From contig JADLFL010000023.1 in the NCBI GenBank assembly GCA_020845575.1, forward strand, positions 62,001-126,000: a stretch of DNA of 64,000 nucleotides. The letters run 5' to 3'. Positions within the stretch are counted from its first letter, which is position 1. Each line of letters starts with the position of its first letter. This stretch comes from Acidobacteriota bacterium (GTDB lineage Bacteria > Acidobacteriota > Vicinamibacteria > Vicinamibacterales > Vicinamibacteraceae). The notes under the pieces were generated by a model. That model searched no databases. It was not told the DNA's origin and was given only the letters and a program-made list of their open reading frames with translations. The position numbers and the translations under genes were made by a program. This document shows positions 3,864-61,813 of the stretch, one piece after another.

Positions 3864-3870
3864 AACTGCC

Positions 3871-3900
3871 GGCAACGGGCAACCGGCAACAGGCAACCGG
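3871..3900. repeat. heptanucleotide tandem repeat, inverted orientation (GGCAACC)4
   Basis: Four 7-bp units (GGCAACG, GGCAACC, GGCAACA, GGCAACC) form the reverse complement of the CCGGTTG family. The tract lies in the divergent gap upstream of the epimerase-like gene. Degenerate continuation reaches about 3925. Confidence 0.8.
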
Positions 3901-3976
3901 ACATCTGCCGACAACGGGCACCGGCCCGCCTCCGCACCTCCGGTGCTTCGGTGCGGCAAGGCCTGGGCAGCGTCAG

Positions 3977-6311: not shown

Positions 6312-7736
6312 TCAGATGAGCGGCCGGGCTCCAAGAGCCGGCGCTGCCTCTGATCCCCTGAGATTCTGCAATCGGGCGATGCCGAAATTGCGGGCGTCAG
6401 CAATGCATGCATTGATGGACACACCCCGATAGGCATTGCCGGCCAGGAAGAGCCCCGGGTGTCTGGCGAGGCGCGCTTCGGCGGTGGCGACGCGATCGCG
6501 GTGGCCGACGGTGTACTGCGGAATACCGGTCCGATGGCGAATCAGCCTGACGAACGACGGCGCGGAGTCGATGCCGAGTATCGTTCGTAGATCCTTACGC
6601 ACCACGGCCAGCACCCTGTCATCGTCCAGCGTCACCGCTGTGGGATCACTCGCGCCGCCCATCATCACCCGCATCAGGACGTGGCCCTTCGGGGCGCGGC
6701 CGGGGAACACGATCGAGTCCCATACGCAGCCCAGCGTGCGCAATCCCTCGATGCGCGGGATCAGGTAGCCGAAGCCGTCGAGCGGTCTCGGCAACTGCGA
6801 CTCGGAGAAGCCGAGACACGCAACGACCATGCTCGCCGTGGGCATCTCGTCGAGCACCGCGGCCAGCGGACGATCGAAGTCGCGGACGATGCGCGCCGTC
6901 TGCGCGGACCCGCCGGCCATCACGACGGCATCGGCAACCTCCGTGCGGCCGTCCTCGCAGAGCAGCCGATACGCGCCGGTCCCGGTGCGCACGACGGCCT
7001 CGACGCCCGCACTCGTGCGAACGACATGGCCCAGACGATCGGCCAGCGTGCGGACGAGCACGTCGAGACCGCCTGCGAACGACGTGAGCCGGCCCGTTGG
7101 CGCACCGATGCCGTTGGCCTTGTCGCGTGACCGCTTCCGACGTGCAACGAGCGCTCGCACGAGACCGCCATGATCGGTCTCCATCTGCCACATGGCCGGA
7201 AAGCACGCGCGCAGCGACAGCGCGTGCGCGTCGCCGCCGAACACGCCGGACACCATCGGATCGATCAGCATGTCGGCGGCCTCGCCGCCGATGCGGCGCG
7301 CGGCGAAGGCGTGGATGGTCTCGTCGCCGGCGGGGCGCGACGCCGCGAACGGTTCCCACGCCAGGCGCGCCTTGGCGGGCCACGACAGCAGACCGCTCCG
7401 CAGCAGGCTCACCGGGCCCGTCGGCACCTCGTGCAGACGCAGGCCCCTGACGATGTAGCGCCTGCGTGCGCTGTCGTCGCCCACCTGGAGACGATCGCCG
7501 AGCCCGAGTTCGCGCACGAGATCGAGCGTCGGCGGCGAGCTGTCGAGGAAGCCGTTCGGACCCCACTCGCACGTGTACCCGTCTCTGACCTCGGTGCGGA
7601 TGTTGCCGCCCGCGCGTGGGCTGCGCTCGAAGACCACGACGTCGACGTCGACGGACTTCAGGAGCGTGTGTGCCAGCGACAGTCCCGCGATCCCGCCACC
7701 GACGATGGCGACTCGCGGCCGGCCGTCGCCAGTCAT
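6312..7736 (-). CDS. hemY: protoporphyrinogen/coproporphyrinogen oxidase (FAD, HemY type)
   Basis: A 474-residue FAD amine-oxidase-fold enzyme that oxidises protoporphyrinogen IX (or coproporphyrinogen III) with O2. The N-terminal dinucleotide-binding motif is 'VAIVGGGIAGLSLAHTL' (residues 9-25), followed by 'ERSPRAGGNIRTE' and the family signature 'WGPNGFLDS'. The C-terminal FAD segment is 'GLFLAGNAYRGVSIN'. Its ATG overlaps the hemH stop (ATGA), so it is the third gene of hemN-hemH-hemY. The last codons (APALGARPL) are encoded by a dispersed palindromic repeat. With a protoporphyrin-type ferrochelatase beside it, protoporphyrinogen is the likelier substrate. Confidence 0.9.
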   Translation of the reverse strand: MTGDGRPRVAIVGGGIAGLSLAHTLLKSVDVDVVVFERSPRAGGNIRTEVRDGYTCEWGPNGFLDSSPPTLDLVRELGLGDRLQVGDDSARRRYIVRGLRLHEVPTGPVSLLRSGLLSWPAKARLAWEPFAASRPAGDETIHAFAARRIGGEAADMLIDPMVSGVFGGDAHALSLRACFPAMWQMETDHGGLVRALVARRKRSRDKANGIGAPTGRLTSFAGGLDVLVRTLADRLGHVVRTSAGVEAVVRTGTGAYRLLCEDGRTEVADAVVMAGGSAQTARIVRDFDRPLAAVLDEMPTASMVVACLGFSESQLPRPLDGFGYLIPRIEGLRTLGCVWDSIVFPGRAPKGHVLMRVMMGGASDPTAVTLDDDRVLAVVRKDLRTILGIDSAPSFVRLIRHRTGIPQYTVGHRDRVATAEARLARHPGLFLAGNAYRGVSINACIADARNFGIARLQNLRGSEAAPALGARPLI

Positions 7737-8787: not shown

Positions 8788-10302
8788 TCAGACGGTCCTC
8801 GAGAACACCGGCGTGGCGGCGCGCGCCTCGCGCAGGTGGCGGTCGAAGGTCATGCAGATGTTGCGCACCAGCGCGCGGCCTCTCGGCGTCACGCGCAGCA
8901 CGCCGGCGTGCTCGCGCAGCAGGCCGTGGCGTACGGGACCATCGGCCAGTTCCTGCAGTTCGCGCGCGAAGTACGCGTCGAAGTCGATGCCGAACCGCCG
9001 CTCGACCTCGTGGACGTCGAGCACCATCGCGCACATCAACTGCGCGATGACGTGGCGCCGGATCTGGTCGTCGGGGTCGAGCGCGTAGCCGCGTTCCACT
9101 GGCAGGCGGCCCTCGTCGATCGCGCGGTAGTAGGCGCTGAGCTTCTTCGTGTTCTGCGTGAACGCGCCCGCCACGTCGCCGATCGCCGAGACACCGAGGC
9201 CGACGAGATCGGGCGCCGGACGCGTGGTGTAGCCCATGAAGTTGCGGTGCAGCGTCCCCGTCGCCGCGGCGCGGGCCAGGTCGTCTCCGGGCAGCGCGAA
9301 GTGGTCCATGCCGATGGCGACGTACCCGGCGTCGATCAGACGCTGCCGCGCGTCGACGAACAGACGCAGCTTCTGGTCCGCCGACGGCAGGTCCTCGACG
9401 CGCAGCAGTTTCTGGTGCGCGCGAATCCATGGCACGTGCGCGAAGGAGTACGCGGCGATGCGGTCTGGCCGCAGCGCGATGACCGTGTCGATGGTCCGCG
9501 CGAACGACGCGTCGGTCTGCTTCGGGAGGCCGTAGATCAGATCGACGTTGATGGAAGCGAACCCGAGCTGCCGCGCGTGGTGGATGAGCGCGCGCGTCGC
9601 CGCCACGCCCTGCACACGGTTGACCGCCTGCTGCACGTCATCGTCGAAGTCCTGCACGCCGAGCGAGAGGCGCGAGAAGCCGAGGGCACGCAGCACCTCG
9701 AGCTGTTCGAATGACGTCACGCGCGGATCGACTTCGATGGCCCGTTCGCCGGAGGCCTCGATGTCGAACGAGTCGCACACCGCGGCGTGGAGGCCGCGCA
9801 TCTGGTCGGGCGAGAGATAGCTCGGTGTGCCGCCGCCCCAGTGGTACTGCACCACGTGCCGGCGGCGACCGAGGCGCTCGGCGACCATGCGCAGTTCCCG
9901 AACGAGATACGTCAGGTATTCGGCGGCCACGTGGCGCTTGCGCGTGACGATGACCGAGCAGCCGCAAAAGGCGCAGCGCGACTCGCAGAAGGGCAGGTGG
10001 AGATACAGGGAGAGCGGCGCGTCGGCGTTGGTGGCGGCGCGAGACAGATGCGCGTCGTAGTCGGCGGCGCCGAACCCGGAGTGGAACTCGACGGCGGTCG
10101 GGTACGAGGTGTAGCGCGGCCCCGGCTTGTCGTACCGGTGCAGCAGATCGACCGTGACAGCAGGGTTGTCGAAATCCCCGGGTGCGACGGTCGCACCCGG
10201 GGCGGGCAGTGGGGAGGTCAGGTCCTGCGGGGAGGATGCCACTGCCACGAGCGTCCCCGGTGCAAGCATCGAGCCACGCATGAATCGCACGCCCGCCGGC
10301 AC
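8788..10302 (-). CDS. hemN: oxygen-independent coproporphyrinogen III oxidase (radical SAM)
   Basis: A 504-residue radical-SAM enzyme that decarboxylates coproporphyrinogen III to protoporphyrinogen IX without O2. The HemN cluster C-x3-C-x2-C-x-C is C106, C110, C113, C115 ('CESRCAFCGC'); the extra Cys and the upstream 'YDKPGPRYTSYPTA' separate HemN from HemW. 'HWGGGTPSYL' (about 155-164) is the SAM-binding GGGTP-type motif. The N-terminal 45 residues before 'TVDLLHRYDK' are variable, and ATGs at 10281 or 10269 are alternative starts. It is the first gene of the heme operon and pairs an anaerobic step with an O2-dependent HemY. Confidence 0.93.
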   Translation of the reverse strand: MPAGVRFMRGSMLAPGTLVAVASSPQDLTSPLPAPGATVAPGDFDNPAVTVDLLHRYDKPGPRYTSYPTAVEFHSGFGAADYDAHLSRAATNADAPLSLYLHLPFCESRCAFCGCSVIVTRKRHVAAEYLTYLVRELRMVAERLGRRRHVVQYHWGGGTPSYLSPDQMRGLHAAVCDSFDIEASGERAIEVDPRVTSFEQLEVLRALGFSRLSLGVQDFDDDVQQAVNRVQGVAATRALIHHARQLGFASINVDLIYGLPKQTDASFARTIDTVIALRPDRIAAYSFAHVPWIRAHQKLLRVEDLPSADQKLRLFVDARQRLIDAGYVAIGMDHFALPGDDLARAAATGTLHRNFMGYTTRPAPDLVGLGVSAIGDVAGAFTQNTKKLSAYYRAIDEGRLPVERGYALDPDDQIRRHVIAQLMCAMVLDVHEVERRFGIDFDAYFARELQELADGPVRHGLLREHAGVLRVTPRGRALVRNICMTFDRHLREARAATPVFSRTV

Positions 10303-11196: not shown

Positions 11197-11202
11197 TCAC
11201 GA

Positions 11203-11330
11203 CCGGCAACCGGCAACCGGCAACCGGTTGACGGGCGTCGCTGCCGGACGGCCTGCCCCGCCGTAGTGCGCCAGCGCGGAGATGTCCGGTTGCCGGTTGC
11301 CCATTGCCGGTTGCCGGTTGCCGGTTGCCG
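11203..11330. repeat. inverted pair of heptad repeat tracts
   Basis: 11203-11230 holds CCGGCAA x3 plus CCGGTTG. 11286-11330 holds six units of CCGGTTG (one degenerate, CCCATTG). The tracts are in opposite orientation, so they could pair as a stem of roughly 25 bp around a 55-nt loop. They fill the gap between the methyltransferase and PAP2 genes. Confidence 0.75.
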
Positions 11331-11359
11331 ACTGTATCCCCACCTGAGGTACAGTTGTC

Positions 11360-12348: not shown

Positions 12349-12406
12349 GCCGGACGACTTGTCCGCCGTAGCCCGCAGGGCGAAGGTGGAAATCCGACGG
12401 CTACAC
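12349..12406. repeat. dispersed palindromic repeat (GTAGCC-type), copy 1
   Basis: The core TTGTCCGCCGTAGCCCG at 12359-12375 and the following AGGGCGAAGG agree with 55260-55287 at 27 of 28 positions. The element is roughly self-complementary, with an inner GCCCGCAGGGC hairpin. It occupies the gap between two convergent genes (PAP2 and kinase). Confidence 0.7.
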
Positions 12407-26931: not shown

Positions 26932-28406
26932 TCACGTCATCTCTGTATCAGAGCGGGCACCGGGCACCGGGCATCGGGCACCGGACAGCCGGGGACCGAG
27001 CGTCAGGTCTGCTCACACCACGGCGTTCGTTGTCGGTCATCGCGTTGCTGCTCACGACGATGGTCGTGGGTGGATGCACGTTGGGTCCGGACTACGCGCG
27101 TCCACCTGTGACGACGCCAGACACGTTTCGTGGCGTCGACACCGCAGTGGACACGACGCGCTCGCTCGGCGAAGAGGCGTGGTCGACCGTCTTCACCGAC
27201 GAGACGCTGCGCGCGTTGATCACCGAAGCGCTCGCGGGCAACTACGGCGTGCGGATCGCCGCCACGCGCGTGCTGCAGTCGGCCGCGCAACTCGGCATCA
27301 CGAGCGCCGATCAGCGTCCGACCATCACGGGGCAGGTCACCACATCCGGCCAGCACGGCACGATCTTCGCCGGCCAGTCGGTCCCCACCATCGGCATCGT
27401 CCAGGCCAACGCCGGCATGGCGTGGGAGCTCGATTTCTGGGGCCGGTATCGACGCGCCAGCGAAGCCGCGCGCGCCGAGCTCGAAGCCAGTGAGTGGGGC
27501 CAGCGCGCCATCGTCATGAGCCTCGTGAGCGAGGTGGCGTCGCAGTACTACGTGCTGCGCGCGCTCGATCTCGAGCTGGAGACGTCGACGCGCACGCTCG
27601 CCGTGCGCGAGGAATCGCTGCGCATCACGCAGACGCGCGAGCGCGGCGGCGTGGCGCCACTGGTCGACGTGCGACAGGCCGAACAGCTCGTCGCGGGTTC
27701 GCGTGCGCAGATCGCCGACGTGCAGCGGCGCATCGCGCAGGTGGAGCATGCGCTGAGCCTCCTGCTCGGGCGCGCGCCCGGTCCCATCGCGCGCGGTGCG
27801 GCACTCATCGATCAGACTCATGAACCCGACGTCCCCGCGGGACTTCCCTCGTCGCTGCTGGAGCGGCGGCCCGACGTCCGTCAGGCGGAATTGCGCCTTG
27901 CCGCAGCAACCGCACGCATCGGCGTGGCCGAGGCGCTGAAGTTCCCGCAGATCGGCCTGACGGCATCGGGCGGCGTGGCGAGCACGTCGCTCGGGCGCCT
28001 GCTCTCGTCGGGCACGTGGGCCGTCGCCGGCAACCTCGCGCAGCCGATCTTCGACTCGGGCCGCAACCGATCGCGTGTCGCGCTGGCCGAGGCGCAGGCG
28101 CAGGAAGCGACGCTCGCGTGGCAGAGCACCGTGCTGCAGTCGTTCAGGGAGGTGTCCGACGCGCTCGTGGCCTACCAGCGCACGCGCGAGGTGCGCGCGG
28201 CGCAGGAAGACCTCGTCACCGCCGCGACAGACGCGCGGCGACTCGCCGACCTGCGCTATCGCGGCGGCGTGACGAGCTACCTGGAAGTGCTCGACAGCGA
28301 GACGCGCCTCTTCGCGGCGCAGCTCGCACTCGTGCAGGCCCAGCTCGGCGAACTCACGTCGTACGTCGCCGTCTACCGCGCGCTGGGCGGAGGATGGGAA
28401 GGATAG
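26928..28406 (+). CDS. RND efflux outer-membrane lipoprotein (NodT/OprM family)
   Basis: A 492-residue TolC-like channel. The lipobox 'MVVGGC' is followed by 'TLGPDYARPPV', typical for the OprM group. Two OEP repeats cover about 75-270 and 285-480, with 'WELDFWGRYRRASEAARAEL' and 'LLERRPDVRQAELRLAAATARIG' as family signatures. The GTG at 26928 overlaps the permease stop (GTGA). The first 33 residues before the hydrophobic segment translate a GGGCACC heptad tract, so the N-terminus is lengthened, or translation starts downstream (TTG near 27030). Third gene of the efflux operon. Confidence 0.9.
   Translation: MITSSLYQSGHRAPGIGHRTAGDRASGLLTPRRSLSVIALLLTTMVVGGCTLGPDYARPPVTTPDTFRGVDTAVDTTRSLGEEAWSTVFTDETLRALITEALAGNYGVRIAATRVLQSAAQLGITSADQRPTITGQVTTSGQHGTIFAGQSVPTIGIVQANAGMAWELDFWGRYRRASEAARAELEASEWGQRAIVMSLVSEVASQYYVLRALDLELETSTRTLAVREESLRITQTRERGGVAPLVDVRQAEQLVAGSRAQIADVQRRIAQVEHALSLLLGRAPGPIARGAALIDQTHEPDVPAGLPSSLLERRPDVRQAELRLAAATARIGVAEALKFPQIGLTASGGVASTSLGRLLSSGTWAVAGNLAQPIFDSGRNRSRVALAEAQAQEATLAWQSTVLQSFREVSDALVAYQRTREVRAAQEDLVTAATDARRLADLRYRGGVTSYLEVLDSETRLFAAQLALVQAQLGELTSYVAVYRALGGGWEG
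26955..26984. repeat. heptanucleotide repeat (GGGCACC)4
   Basis: Units GGGCACC, GGGCACC, GGGCATC, GGGCACC lie within the translated N-terminus of the outer-membrane factor. The same family recurs at 61747-61802. Confidence 0.75.
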
Positions 28407-28480: not shown

Positions 28481-28513
28481 CTCGGAGGTAGGGCCGGCTC
28501 TCCGAGCCCGGCC
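28481..28513. repeat. dispersed palindromic repeat (GTAGGGCCGGCTC type)
   Basis: CTCGGAG at 28481-28487 pairs with CTCCGAG at 28500-28506. The whole stretch closely matches, in inverted orientation, 10388-10414. A related sequence lies at 51569-51625. It could terminate the efflux transcript, but no T-run follows. Confidence 0.55.
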
Positions 28514-28539
28514 GCGCACACGGAAGGGAGGCTCGCGCA

Positions 28540-31489: not shown

Positions 31490-32857
<1,368 letters not shown>

Positions 32858-32882
32858 GAGAAAAGGGAGAAAGAGAGAGAAA

Positions 32883-33038
32883 GGGTAAGGGGTAAAGACA
32901 GAGAAAAGGAGGGAAGCAACAAAAGCGCAAGGCAAGAGTCCGAAGGGGAAAGCCGGGCGGTCGCTTCGCGCTTTCGCCTCGGGCATTTCGCTTTCCTCTT
33001 GAAGCTTTCTCCTTTTTCGCTGTCTTTACCCATTACCC
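32883..33038 (-). repeat. 156-bp inverted-repeat element, copy 1
   Basis: The left arm 32883-32911 and right arm 33009-33038 are near-perfect reverse complements (two mismatches, one indel over 30 bp). Read on the minus strand, its interior shares a conserved block with copy 2, including CGCGAAGCGACCG and a preceding GAAATGC-CGAGGC. It fills the gap between the oxidoreductase and the alcohol dehydrogenase, ending 26 bp before the latter's ATG. It has no coding capacity. Confidence 0.8.
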
Positions 33039-33064
33039 TTTTTCTGCTTTACACTTTGTCCCCC

Positions 33065-34120
33065 ATGCCCCTCGCCTCCGCCTATGGTGCGGTCGACAGC
33101 TCGTCGCCGCTCGGTCCCATGACGATCACTCGACGCGATCCGCTGCCGGACGATGTCGAGATCGAGATTCTGTATTGCGGGGTGTGCCACTCCGATCTCC
33201 ACTTCGCGCGCAACGAGTGGGGGATGTCGACGTACCCGCTCGTGCCGGGGCATGAGATCCTCGGGCGCGTCTCGGCGGTCGGGAGTGCCGTGACGAAGTT
33301 CGTCGTGGGTGACACGGCGGCCGTGGGATGCCTCGTCGATTCGTGCCGCACGTGCGCGAGTTGCCGCGAAGGCCTGGAGCAGTACTGCAACGCGGGCGGC
33401 ATGGTCATGACCTACGGCTCGCCCGACGCCCACCTGCCGGGGCAGATGACGCACGGCGGCTACTCGACGAGCATCGTCGTCAGCGAGCGCTTCGTGCTGA
33501 AGGTGGCCGACTCGCTGGACAAGGCGGCCGCCGCGCCGCTGCTGTGCGCGGGCATCACCACGTACTCGCCGCTGAAGCACTGGGGAGCGGGTCCGGGCAA
33601 GAAGGTCGGCATCGTCGGCCTGGGTGGACTCGGGCACATGGGCGTGAAGTTCGCGCATGCGCTCGGTGCGCACACGGTGCTCTTCACCACGTCTCCGAGC
33701 AAGGTGGACGATGGCCGGCGGCTCGGGGCCGACGAGGTCGTGCTCTCGCGCGATGCCGAGGCGATGCAGCAGCACGCAGCGAGCTTCGACCTGATCCTGA
33801 ACACGGTCGCCGCGTCGCACCCGCTCGATCCGTTCGTCAGCCTGCTGAAGCGCGACGGCACCATGGTCCTCGTCGGCGTCCCCGAGCACGCACACCCCTC
33901 GCCGAGCGTGATGAACCTCGTGTTCGGCCGGCGCGCGATCGCCGGCTCCCTCATCGGCGGCCTGCCAGAAACGCAGGAGATGCTCGACTTCTGCGCCGCG
34001 CACGACATCACGTGCGACATCGAGCTGATCCGCATGCAGGACATCAACGACGCCTACGAACGCATGCTCGCCAGCGACGTCAGATACAGGTTTGTGATCG
34101 ACATGAAGTCCAAAGCGTAA
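33065..34120 (+). CDS. zinc-dependent alcohol dehydrogenase (CAD/YahK-like)
   Basis: A 351-residue MDR-family NADP(H) alcohol/aldehyde dehydrogenase. Catalytic Zn ligands lie in 'CGVCHSDLHFARNEWG' and 'VPGHEILGRV'. The structural Zn site has Cys in 'CRTCASCREGLEQYC'. The cofactor motif is 'VGIVGLGGLGHMGVKFAHALG'. This is the cinnamyl-alcohol-dehydrogenase-like subgroup with broad aldehyde reductase activity. No ribosome site is visible before ATG 33065. The gene is flanked by two copies of the 156-bp element in opposite orientation, suggesting it may have moved as a unit. Confidence 0.88.
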   Translation: MPLASAYGAVDSSSPLGPMTITRRDPLPDDVEIEILYCGVCHSDLHFARNEWGMSTYPLVPGHEILGRVSAVGSAVTKFVVGDTAAVGCLVDSCRTCASCREGLEQYCNAGGMVMTYGSPDAHLPGQMTHGGYSTSIVVSERFVLKVADSLDKAAAAPLLCAGITTYSPLKHWGAGPGKKVGIVGLGGLGHMGVKFAHALGAHTVLFTTSPSKVDDGRRLGADEVVLSRDAEAMQQHAASFDLILNTVAASHPLDPFVSLLKRDGTMVLVGVPEHAHPSPSVMNLVFGRRAIAGSLIGGLPETQEMLDFCAAHDITCDIELIRMQDINDAYERMLASDVRYRFVIDMKSKA

Positions 34121-34123
34121 GAA

Positions 34124-34279
34124 GGGTAACGGACAAGGGCAGCGAAAAAGGAGGAAGCCTCGAGGGCAAAGTGAAATGCACGAGGCAAAGGCGCGAAGCG
34201 ACCGGTTGCCTTCTGCCTTCAGACTTCCGCCTTGTCCCCTTGACCCTTTCTCCTTTGTCGCTGCCCTTGTCCGTTACCC
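34124..34279 (+). repeat. 156-bp inverted-repeat element, copy 2
   Basis: The arms 34124-34153 and 34250-34279 are reverse complements at 29 of 30 positions. The length equals that of copy 1. It is homologous to copy 1 read on the other strand, but its arm sequence differs at several positions on both sides in a compensating way. It lies between the convergent alcohol dehydrogenase and LacI genes. A CCGGTTGCC trace occurs at its centre (34203). Confidence 0.82.
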
Positions 34280-34309
34280 TTTTTCCTTTGGACTTTTCAG
34301 TCCTGTGTT

Positions 34310-35377
34310 CTACCCGGACGCCGGCTCCACCGGGGCACTGTCACCCCTGACGTAGCGACCGGCGCGCAACGGATATCCGCACGAGTCCCTGATGAGGAGT
34401 GACGTCCTCAGGACGACGGTCTTGTAGCCCCGTCGCTTCTTCTCGCCGTCCTTCGGCTCGAGCGCGTCGATGAGGAGTTCCGCGGCAGACTGCCCCAGTT
34501 CGTACTTCGGCAGGTTGATGGTGGTGAGCCGCGGTGCGAAGGCGTCGAGCCACGGGTGGTCGTCGCACGTGACGATGCCGATGTCTTCCGGACAGCGGAG
34601 CTGATACTGCCGGAGCGCGCCCATGAAGCCGACGGCGCTGATGTAGTTGGCGACGAAGACGGCATCGGGCTTGCGCTTGAGGAGCGTGATGCCGGTGGAG
34701 TATCCGTCTTCCACGCGGAAGTCCCCGGACACGACCAGGTCGGGATCGAACGGCAGGTTGCCGTCGGCGAGCGCCATCTTGTAGCCCTCGAACCGGCGAC
34801 GCGACGTGCTCACGTCAGGTCCGTTGAGCATGCCGATGCGGCGATATCCGAGCCGCACGAGGTGCGCCACGGCTTCGTAGGAGCCGTCCTCTTCGTCGAC
34901 GGTGACCACGTCGGAGCGAAGGCCGGTCCCGAAGCGCATGAGCTGCACGATCGGGATACCCGTGGTCTTGAGCCGCTCGACGATGTCGGGCGGCAGCTTG
35001 CCGCGCGCCTTGGTGAGGAGAATGCCGTCGACGCGCTTGGCAAGGAACAGGCGCAGGTGCTCCGCCTCCTTCTCCGGGTCATCATCGCTGTTGGCGAGCA
35101 GCAGCTCGTAGCGCCGGTGTCGCGCGGCGTCCTCGACGCCACGGATGACGGCCGGCCAGAACGGGTTGGCGATGTTGAGCGCGATCATGCCCAGCGTCTG
35201 CGTTCGCTGCCGGGCGAGGCTCCTGGCGACGAGGTTGGGTTGATAGCCCAGATCCTGGATGGCGGCGTTGACGCGCGCCTGGAGCGGTGGACTGACGTAC
35301 GCGGTCTTGTTCAGTACGGCGGACACCGTGGCTGTCGACACACGGGCACGCTTGGCAACATCGAAGATGGTGGCCAT
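34310..35377 (-). CDS. LacI-family transcriptional regulator
   Basis: A 355-residue repressor with an N-terminal HTH ('TIFDVAKRARVSTATVSAVLN', residues 3-23) and a hinge helix 'NLVARSLARQ' carrying the leucine that intercalates at a central CG step. The periplasmic-binding-like effector domain follows ('TLGMIALNIANPFWPAVIRGVEDAA'). It follows the TonB receptor gene on the same strand. Candidate operators with the CG-centred core AAGCGCTT occur upstream of the TonB, transaldolase and iolD/ABC genes, so it likely represses the inositol regulon and responds to an inositol intermediate. That target assignment is inference. Confidence 0.88.
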   Translation of the reverse strand: MATIFDVAKRARVSTATVSAVLNKTAYVSPPLQARVNAAIQDLGYQPNLVARSLARQRTQTLGMIALNIANPFWPAVIRGVEDAARHRRYELLLANSDDDPEKEAEHLRLFLAKRVDGILLTKARGKLPPDIVERLKTTGIPIVQLMRFGTGLRSDVVTVDEEDGSYEAVAHLVRLGYRRIGMLNGPDVSTSRRRFEGYKMALADGNLPFDPDLVVSGDFRVEDGYSTGITLLKRKPDAVFVANYISAVGFMGALRQYQLRCPEDIGIVTCDDHPWLDAFAPRLTTINLPKYELGQSAAELLIDALEPKDGEKKRRGYKTVVLRTSLLIRDSCGYPLRAGRYVRGDSAPVEPASG

Positions 35378-55245: not shown

Positions 55246-55306
55246 GTGTAGCCGCCGGATTGTCCGCCGTAGCCCGAAGGGCGAAGGCGCAAGTGCGGCA
55301 GCTCAC
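55246..55306. repeat. dispersed palindromic repeat (GTAGCC type), copy 2
   Basis: Outer arm GTGTAGCCGCCGGAT (55246-55260) and core TTGTCCGCCGTAGCCCG (55260-55276), followed by AAGGGCGAAGG, match the element at 12349-12406. It lies between convergent EamA and alr genes. Confidence 0.7.
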
Positions 55307-61649: not shown

Positions 61650-61746
61650 ATCGGGTGATCCGTCGCGCCTGAGACGAGCCCACGCGGGACAGGCGACCGT
61701 TGATCCTACCTCATGACGGGGATGTGTCGTCAACTCACCGACAACC

Positions 61747-61802
61747 GGGCAGCGGGCACCGGGCAGCGGGCACCGGGCGCCGGGCGCCGGGCGCCGGGCG
61801 CC
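61747..61802. repeat. heptanucleotide repeat (GGGCACC/GGGCGCC)8
   Basis: Eight consecutive 7-bp units: GGGCAGC, GGGCACC, GGGCAGC, GGGCACC, then GGGCGCC x4. It lies directly after ispE and before the tRNA. Adjacent 61808-61844 repeats GCATTCCCG with period 9 and extends into the ispE 3' end. Confidence 0.88.
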
Positions 61803-61813
61803 GGACGGCATTC

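Follow-up and report, generated by a model that had tools for sequence, protein, structure and literature searches.

Oversized palindromes at gene ends in an acidobacterial genome and its congeners, with arms that differ by species

In the stretch of DNA analysed here (64,000 nucleotides, referred to as the window), one alcohol dehydrogenase (ADH) gene is bracketed by two inverted-repeat elements in opposite orientation, which raises the question of what these elements are: the ends of a composite element, members of a new MITE/REP-like family or a structured RNA. The original prediction described two elements of 156 bp with a common central block in opposite orientation, complementary arms of about 30 bp and an alcohol dehydrogenase between them. 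All of these are found in the sequence. The elements are slightly larger (32876-33045 and 34119-34285), the block GCGCGAAGCGACCG is present in inverted form, the best-pairing 30 nt of the arms are complementary at 27/30 positions in copy 1 and at 29/30 in copy 2, and the enclosed gene encodes a zinc ADH (33065-34120). The features of the locus are listed below.

32876..33045, no strand: element 1, full palindrome, in the tandem gap between the Gfo/Idh/MocA gene (3' end) and ADH (5' end); recognised by repeat search, fold and family match
32876..32925, plus strand: left arm of element 1, purine-rich, degenerate 7-nt units, AAGGGTAAGGGGTAAAGACAG; arm-model match E 0.0016
32996..33045, minus strand: right arm of element 1, pyrimidine-rich; arm-model match E 2e-8
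34119..34285, no strand: element 2, full palindrome, in the ADH–LacI convergent gap, overlapping the stop codon of ADH at its left end
34119..34166, plus strand: left arm of element 2, purine-rich, AAGGGTAACGGACAAGGGCAGCGAAAAAGGAGGAAG; arm-model match E 4e-10
34237..34284, minus strand: right arm of element 2, pyrimidine-rich; arm-model match E 7.5e-12
31490..32857, plus strand: Gfo/Idh/MocA oxidoreductase, upstream neighbour; stop codon 18 nt ahead of element 1
33065..34120, plus strand: zinc alcohol dehydrogenase (ADH), between both elements
34310..35377, minus strand: LacI-family regulator, convergent with ADH; 3' end 24 nt from element 2

The arms are complementary at 80% of positions in element 1 (50-nt arms) and at 88% in element 2 (48-nt arms), and the two elements are mutual reverse complements (73% over 180 nt). 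The RNA fold of element 1 has an energy of -93.2 kcal/mol (z -8.5) and that of element 2 of -100.3 kcal/mol (z -10.8); in both cases none of 200 shuffles was as good. A tract scan located long purine/pyrimidine tracts in the window solely at these two elements. The Rfam search of the window returned only tRNA, neither element matching a curated family, and a simple terminator scan found no short-loop terminator inside either of them.

To find the family in this genome (G000), we used blast with each element, together with an arm model that relies on sequence only and was derived from 34 arms. The profile search of the contigs with the arm model gave 40 arm matches at about 29 intergenic places, comprising 11 full palindromes (135-236 nt) and 18 single arms; the two window elements are not, then, the only copies genome-wide. 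Some of the single arms are halves of one split element: on contig C54, a gene for a Mutator/IS256-type transposase (L091:4475-5299) separates two arms that face each other. Since several arms are located at contig ends (C37:17; C20:116157 of 116291), the draft assembly probably undercounts the family. The architecture has three parts: a purine-rich arm about 50 nt long, built from degenerate 7-9-nt units; an apex that is specific to each copy and frequently forms a GC-rich hairpin; and a pyrimidine-rich arm complementary to the first. The G000 arms have the consensus AAAGGGTAACGGACAAGGACAGCGAAAAAGGCGGAAGG and a period of 7, and their outer tips often read GTCAAAG...CTTTGAC, as they do in the congener G004. 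At one further place (L092:4460-4560, contig C44) the apex is enlarged by tandem repetition of CGTCCTTCCG-type units.

Concerning the distribution across relatives, the G000 arm model has no matches in 39 genomes of the same order, four congeners among them (about 144 candidates scored per genome), and this rules out one sequence family common to the genus. A 20-mer core gave only two matches, both unrelated, in a set of 85k genomes from which records of G000 itself are possibly absent. At least three congeners nevertheless bear palindromes or arms of like architecture with other sequences, each a dispersed family of its own. At the orthologous ADH 3' end, palindromes with different arms are found in both G004 and G002 (fold z -10.9 each), the apex of the G004 element containing a GC-rich stem of about 16 bp, and G003 has a short palindrome at this site. 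There are 44 arms in G002 (consensus AGAAGAGTAGAAGGGTAGAAGGGAAGAAGGCAGGGCGGGAAGG, autocorrelation period 8) and 29 in G004 (consensus TCAAAAGGGCGAAAAGGGCAAACAGGGCAAAACGACACAACCGAAGG, autocorrelation lags 8-9), and G001 holds a further family; blast gives 63 alignments in G002, 39 in G004 and 33 for the G001 arm upstream of AspRS. Based on arm autocorrelations of 7, 8 and 8-9 in G000, G002 and G004, respectively, the class is not strictly heptameric.

The elements are distributed unevenly over the types of intergenic gap. Both neighbouring genes are called for 34 full elements of G000, G002 and G004; of these, 18 are in convergent gaps, 16 in tandem gaps and none in divergent ones, compared with 13/55/32% convergent/tandem/divergent for background gaps of at least 100 nt (divergent zero, P=1.6e-6; convergent excess, P=2e-8). 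The median distance of the outer arm ends is 0-12 nt for stop codons and 20-38 nt for start codons, and full elements start no more than about 10 nt away from a stop codon. Arms facing 3' ends outnumber those facing 5' ends overall (79 vs 28); this bias is due to gap type, as the ratio in tandem gaps is 24:22, an equality that arises because full palindromes span the gap. The statement that all arms are at 3' ends is weakened by the same ratio. In the full elements of the three genomes the purine-rich side is always on the left. The same polarity is seen in a sequence-blind scan for 30-nt palindromes in samples that cover about 1.9 Mb from 12 genomes of the order: 16 purine-left/pyrimidine-right palindromes were found and none of the opposite polarity. 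Those from outside the genus are built from unrelated short units, such as AAGGCAG-type units in G030 and CAACGGAG-type units in G029, and most of them come after a stop codon. At L248 and L261 (G002 and G004) a single arm is present between the stop codon and a conserved terminator (GC stem plus T-tract). Several of the flanking genes belong to central metabolism (PGK/TIM, aconitase, acetyl-CoA synthetase and malic enzyme).

There is also a difference between genomes in how the two arms of one copy relate to each other. For G000, two 31-nt arm cores per full copy were aligned without gaps; in the 11 full copies 88.9% of the arm-core cells pair, 13/31 pairs carry changes in both arms, and covariation scores 0.220 vs 0.122 (sd 0.017) in shuffles (0/500), a signal that collapses when the alignment is slid. 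Own left-right partners match at 26.6 of 31 positions vs 24.3 across copies (permutation p=0.0014). The result for G002 is opposite, with 500/500 shuffles scoring at least as high in 11/14 full copies; L234, L246 and L251 were left out of this count (gapless core out of register), while the permutation test took all 14. The excess of own partners is absent from both G002 (p=0.999) and G004 (p=0.96) in the permutation test. The covarying arms of the original prediction are thus real in G000, whose additional copies keep their pairing, and lacking in G002, which has no within-copy covariation, so that covariation does not characterise the class as a whole; correction of one arm against the other within a copy is ruled out as a general rule by the G002 and G004 tests. 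In the full G002 elements (L232-L256) own arms match at 32.0 of 43 positions vs 33.7 across elements, as if perfect pairing were avoided. Many arms outside G000 are solitary as well. For the single arms tested in G002 and G004 no pairing partner was found, apart from one or two weak exceptions, which indicates that pairing is not always needed. Pairing is widespread, and arm-to-arm correction is visible only in G000.

Matching of the flanking proteins shows that G002 and G004 have 11 sites that are orthologous on both flanks and one more that is orthologous on one flank, where 0.1-0.4 would be expected at random (P below 1e-14); when restricted to convergent gaps, P is still about 1e-5 to 1e-7. 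Five or six G000 sites are common to G002/G004: 3' of ADH, 3' of an ATP-grasp gene, two at the thioesterase locus, 5' of 6PGD and 3' of MacB. Across ten orthologous G002/G004 sites, the element score between species is 29.3, compared with 23.5 for non-orthologous pairs (p=0.0018). Comparisons of elements between sites inside one species give 47.7 and 49.9, and the flanks reach about 116 per 200 nt. Likeness within a species is greater than likeness between orthologous copies, which is the signature of concerted evolution, and these comparisons indicate that concerted evolution within species is superimposed on shared ancestry of the sites. The spelling of the arms has apparently been rewritten genome-wide in each species, with place and shape kept.

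With respect to the ADH locus itself, the original prediction also compared the pair to a composite element, and this part does not stand: ADH is an ordinary chromosomal gene, there is no transposase, the site of the right palindrome, 3' of the orthologous ADH, is occupied by palindromes of other sequence in two congeners (G002 and G004), and the gap of element 1, upstream of ADH, is empty in G004. What remains is a palindromic family of REP/MITE-like type, so far unnamed, whose fold is conserved and whose arms covary in G000. Element 2 is by far the closest relative of element 1 (blast E 3e-24; next best 6e-8). From this likeness and the empty upstream gap of G004, element 1 appears to be a lineage-specific, local inverted copy of element 2, probably a recent one. 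A second inverted pair around one gene is present at C37:8558-8736 and 10052-10229. Such bracketing of genes is most simply explained by local inverted copying, and a composite transposon is unnecessary.

Short tandem units are also found outside the palindromes. Autocorrelation of intergenic sequence at lags 7, 14, 21 and 28 is clear in G000 and G002 and not in G006 or G009. There are 45 arrays of 7-mers, of many different units, in 462 kb of G000 and 22 in 200 kb of G002, other periods being few; neighbouring G000 arrays that face opposite ways are purine-left in 7/7 cases. Within the window, intergenic (CCGGCAA)n/(TTGCCGG)n arrays are located at 1719-1759, 3865-3907, 11198-11240 and 11281-11340, the last two facing each other with the purine side left. 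The gap arrays (CGGGCAC)n/(CGGGCGC)n at 26948-26993 and 61736-61813 are G-rich, and G-quadruplexes are conceivable there. A 44-nt dispersed repeat, TTGTCCGCCGTAGCCCG(A)AGGGCGAAGG..., at 12359-12402 and 55260-55303 (84% identical) represents a separate repeat family, and a 37-nt inverted repeat at 6317-6353 and 28482-28518 (84% complementary, GC-rich palindromic GGCTCCAAGAGCCGGC) may be another dispersed element. In G001 (L117), adjacent arrays of (CCAGCCT)n, (GCAGGCA)n and (CGTCAAG)n are found downstream of CofD.

The features observed for the class are its fold, its sites, the proximity to stop codons, the convergent excess and divergent absence of full copies, the purine-left polarity, the species-specific arms at orthologous sites and concerted evolution within species. 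Our preferred reading, whose chances we judge to be about even, is that these oversized 3'-end palindromes are putative two-way terminators or 3'-end hairpins made of 7-9-nt units and homogenised within species. Transcription from either direction would emit the purine arm first, and the transcript would fold once the pyrimidine arm emerges; the RNA:DNA hybrid would be weak at that point and termination would follow. The element would then serve as a two-way terminator or insulator, as well as an mRNA-protecting 3'-end hairpin. Nonreciprocal recombination or template switching may recopy arms between sites, and from one arm to the other at a single site; such recopying would swap the arm sequence of the genome while the sites and the architecture stay. 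A bolder form, to which we assign only a minor share of belief, is a gene-end hairpin system with species dialects, in which an active, undescribed copying mechanism would periodically rewrite the arm letters simultaneously across many loci.

Of the competing explanations, MITE-like mobility and neutral slippage are the strongest, and we regard both as unlikely. As MITE-like non-autonomous elements, the palindromes would carry their arms as terminal inverted repeats moved in trans by a transposase, in species-specific bursts and with insertion favouring post-stop sites. Terminal inverted repeats and dispersed copies are indeed present, as are a variable interior, many copies, the recurrent outer tips of G000 and G004, and a lineage-specific gain (element 1, absent from G004). 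This reading has difficulty with at least 11 sites that are common to two congeners despite different arm families, and with the many solitary arms; moreover, no associated transposase was found at the elements, the only one met there (IS256-type) itself splitting an element, and no clear target-site duplication was seen by eye in the inspected flanks. The ends of the elements are fuzzy, and intact elements contain no gene. The elements could instead be a functionless by-product of replication slippage or template switching, with 7-9-nt arrays growing in spacers and hairpins copying arm into arm. The period-7 intergenic signal of G000 and G002 with its many unrelated units agrees with this, as do the unrelated short-unit palindromes in other genomes of the order and the over-representation of heptamers in bacteria, which has been ascribed to polymerase slippage (PMC4692102). 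Slippage leaves unexplained, however, the homogenisation of unlinked sites, the conserved sites and the absence from divergent gaps.

Single arms in 3' UTRs before a terminator, several similar units per arm and a number of central-metabolic neighbours would also suit arrays in 3' UTRs that bind a trans-acting RNA-binding protein or small RNA, with arms that co-evolve with the factor and hence differ by species. We consider this improbable: joint change of many sites is hard to achieve by point selection (flanking proteins of the congeners are 75-95% identical), and such arrays require neither pairing arms nor palindromes. Far less probable still are REPINs, i.e. REP doublets mobilised by a RAYT transposase; the elements are likewise extragenic inverted doublets with a variable spacer, but the arms are purine-rich and without the small self-palindrome of REPs. 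Searches for Y1_Tnp (PF01797) gave no match in G000 and G002 and a single partial match in either of G001 and G004, the E. coli control being positive; as no RAYT transposase was found, the elements are not taken to be REPINs.

Among known systems, REP/BIME/REPIN sequences are dispersed extragenic palindromes with proposed roles in termination and mRNA stability (PMC3116915, PMC3733652). They share intergenic inverted doublets, hairpin potential and a variable spacer with the present class, which differs in having purine-rich arms of about 50 nt without an inner palindrome (by inspection), no RAYT, and arms replaced at the shared sites of congeners; the short self-palindrome of REPs with its GTAG/CGTC-type tag is absent from the arm consensus, which is almost all purine. 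DUS are 10-12-mers present in very high copy. Those of Neisseriaceae have species dialects and frequent inverted pairs associated with terminators (PMC3630211). Both the species-specific spelling and the inverted pairs at terminators are similar here, whereas the arms are about 50 nt long and occur in tens of copies, not thousands. Heptamer-rich intergenic repeats that keep their sites and vary in sequence are described in cyanobacteria (STRRs) and in Xanthomonas/Nostoc (GGGAATC) (PMC4692102), and heptanucleotide intergenic elements in Geobacter (PMC2700814). These also consist of degenerate 7-nt tandem units in intergenic regions, with the same sites and between-species variation in Xanthomonas; the purine-left 3'-end palindrome, the arm homogenised species-wide and the units of 7, 8 or 9 nt set the present class apart. 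In the Nostoc tRNA-Leu intron, the two strands of the P6b stem consist of degenerate heptanucleotide repeats that pair with each other (PMC3488679), but at a single intron locus, in contrast to a dispersed spacer family. Bidirectional intrinsic terminators resemble the elements in their convergent gaps, A/G-rich left and T/C-rich right sides and, in some copies, a GC-rich stem; the elements differ in their size (about 95-240 nt), arms of about 50 nt, long apex and multi-copy shared sequence. A literature search that covered few subscription papers returned nothing on such repeats in the genus of the congeners or on concerted evolution of REPs.

Dispersed bacterial palindromes are usually read as mobile elements whose sequence is common to relatives. 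Here, position and shape persist and the sequence is replaced genome-wide, so that concerted evolution of short dispersed bacterial DNA becomes directly testable, with the congeners offering replicate turnovers at identified orthologous sites. The finding also suggests an unrecognised large 3'-end structure beside several central metabolic genes in this order.
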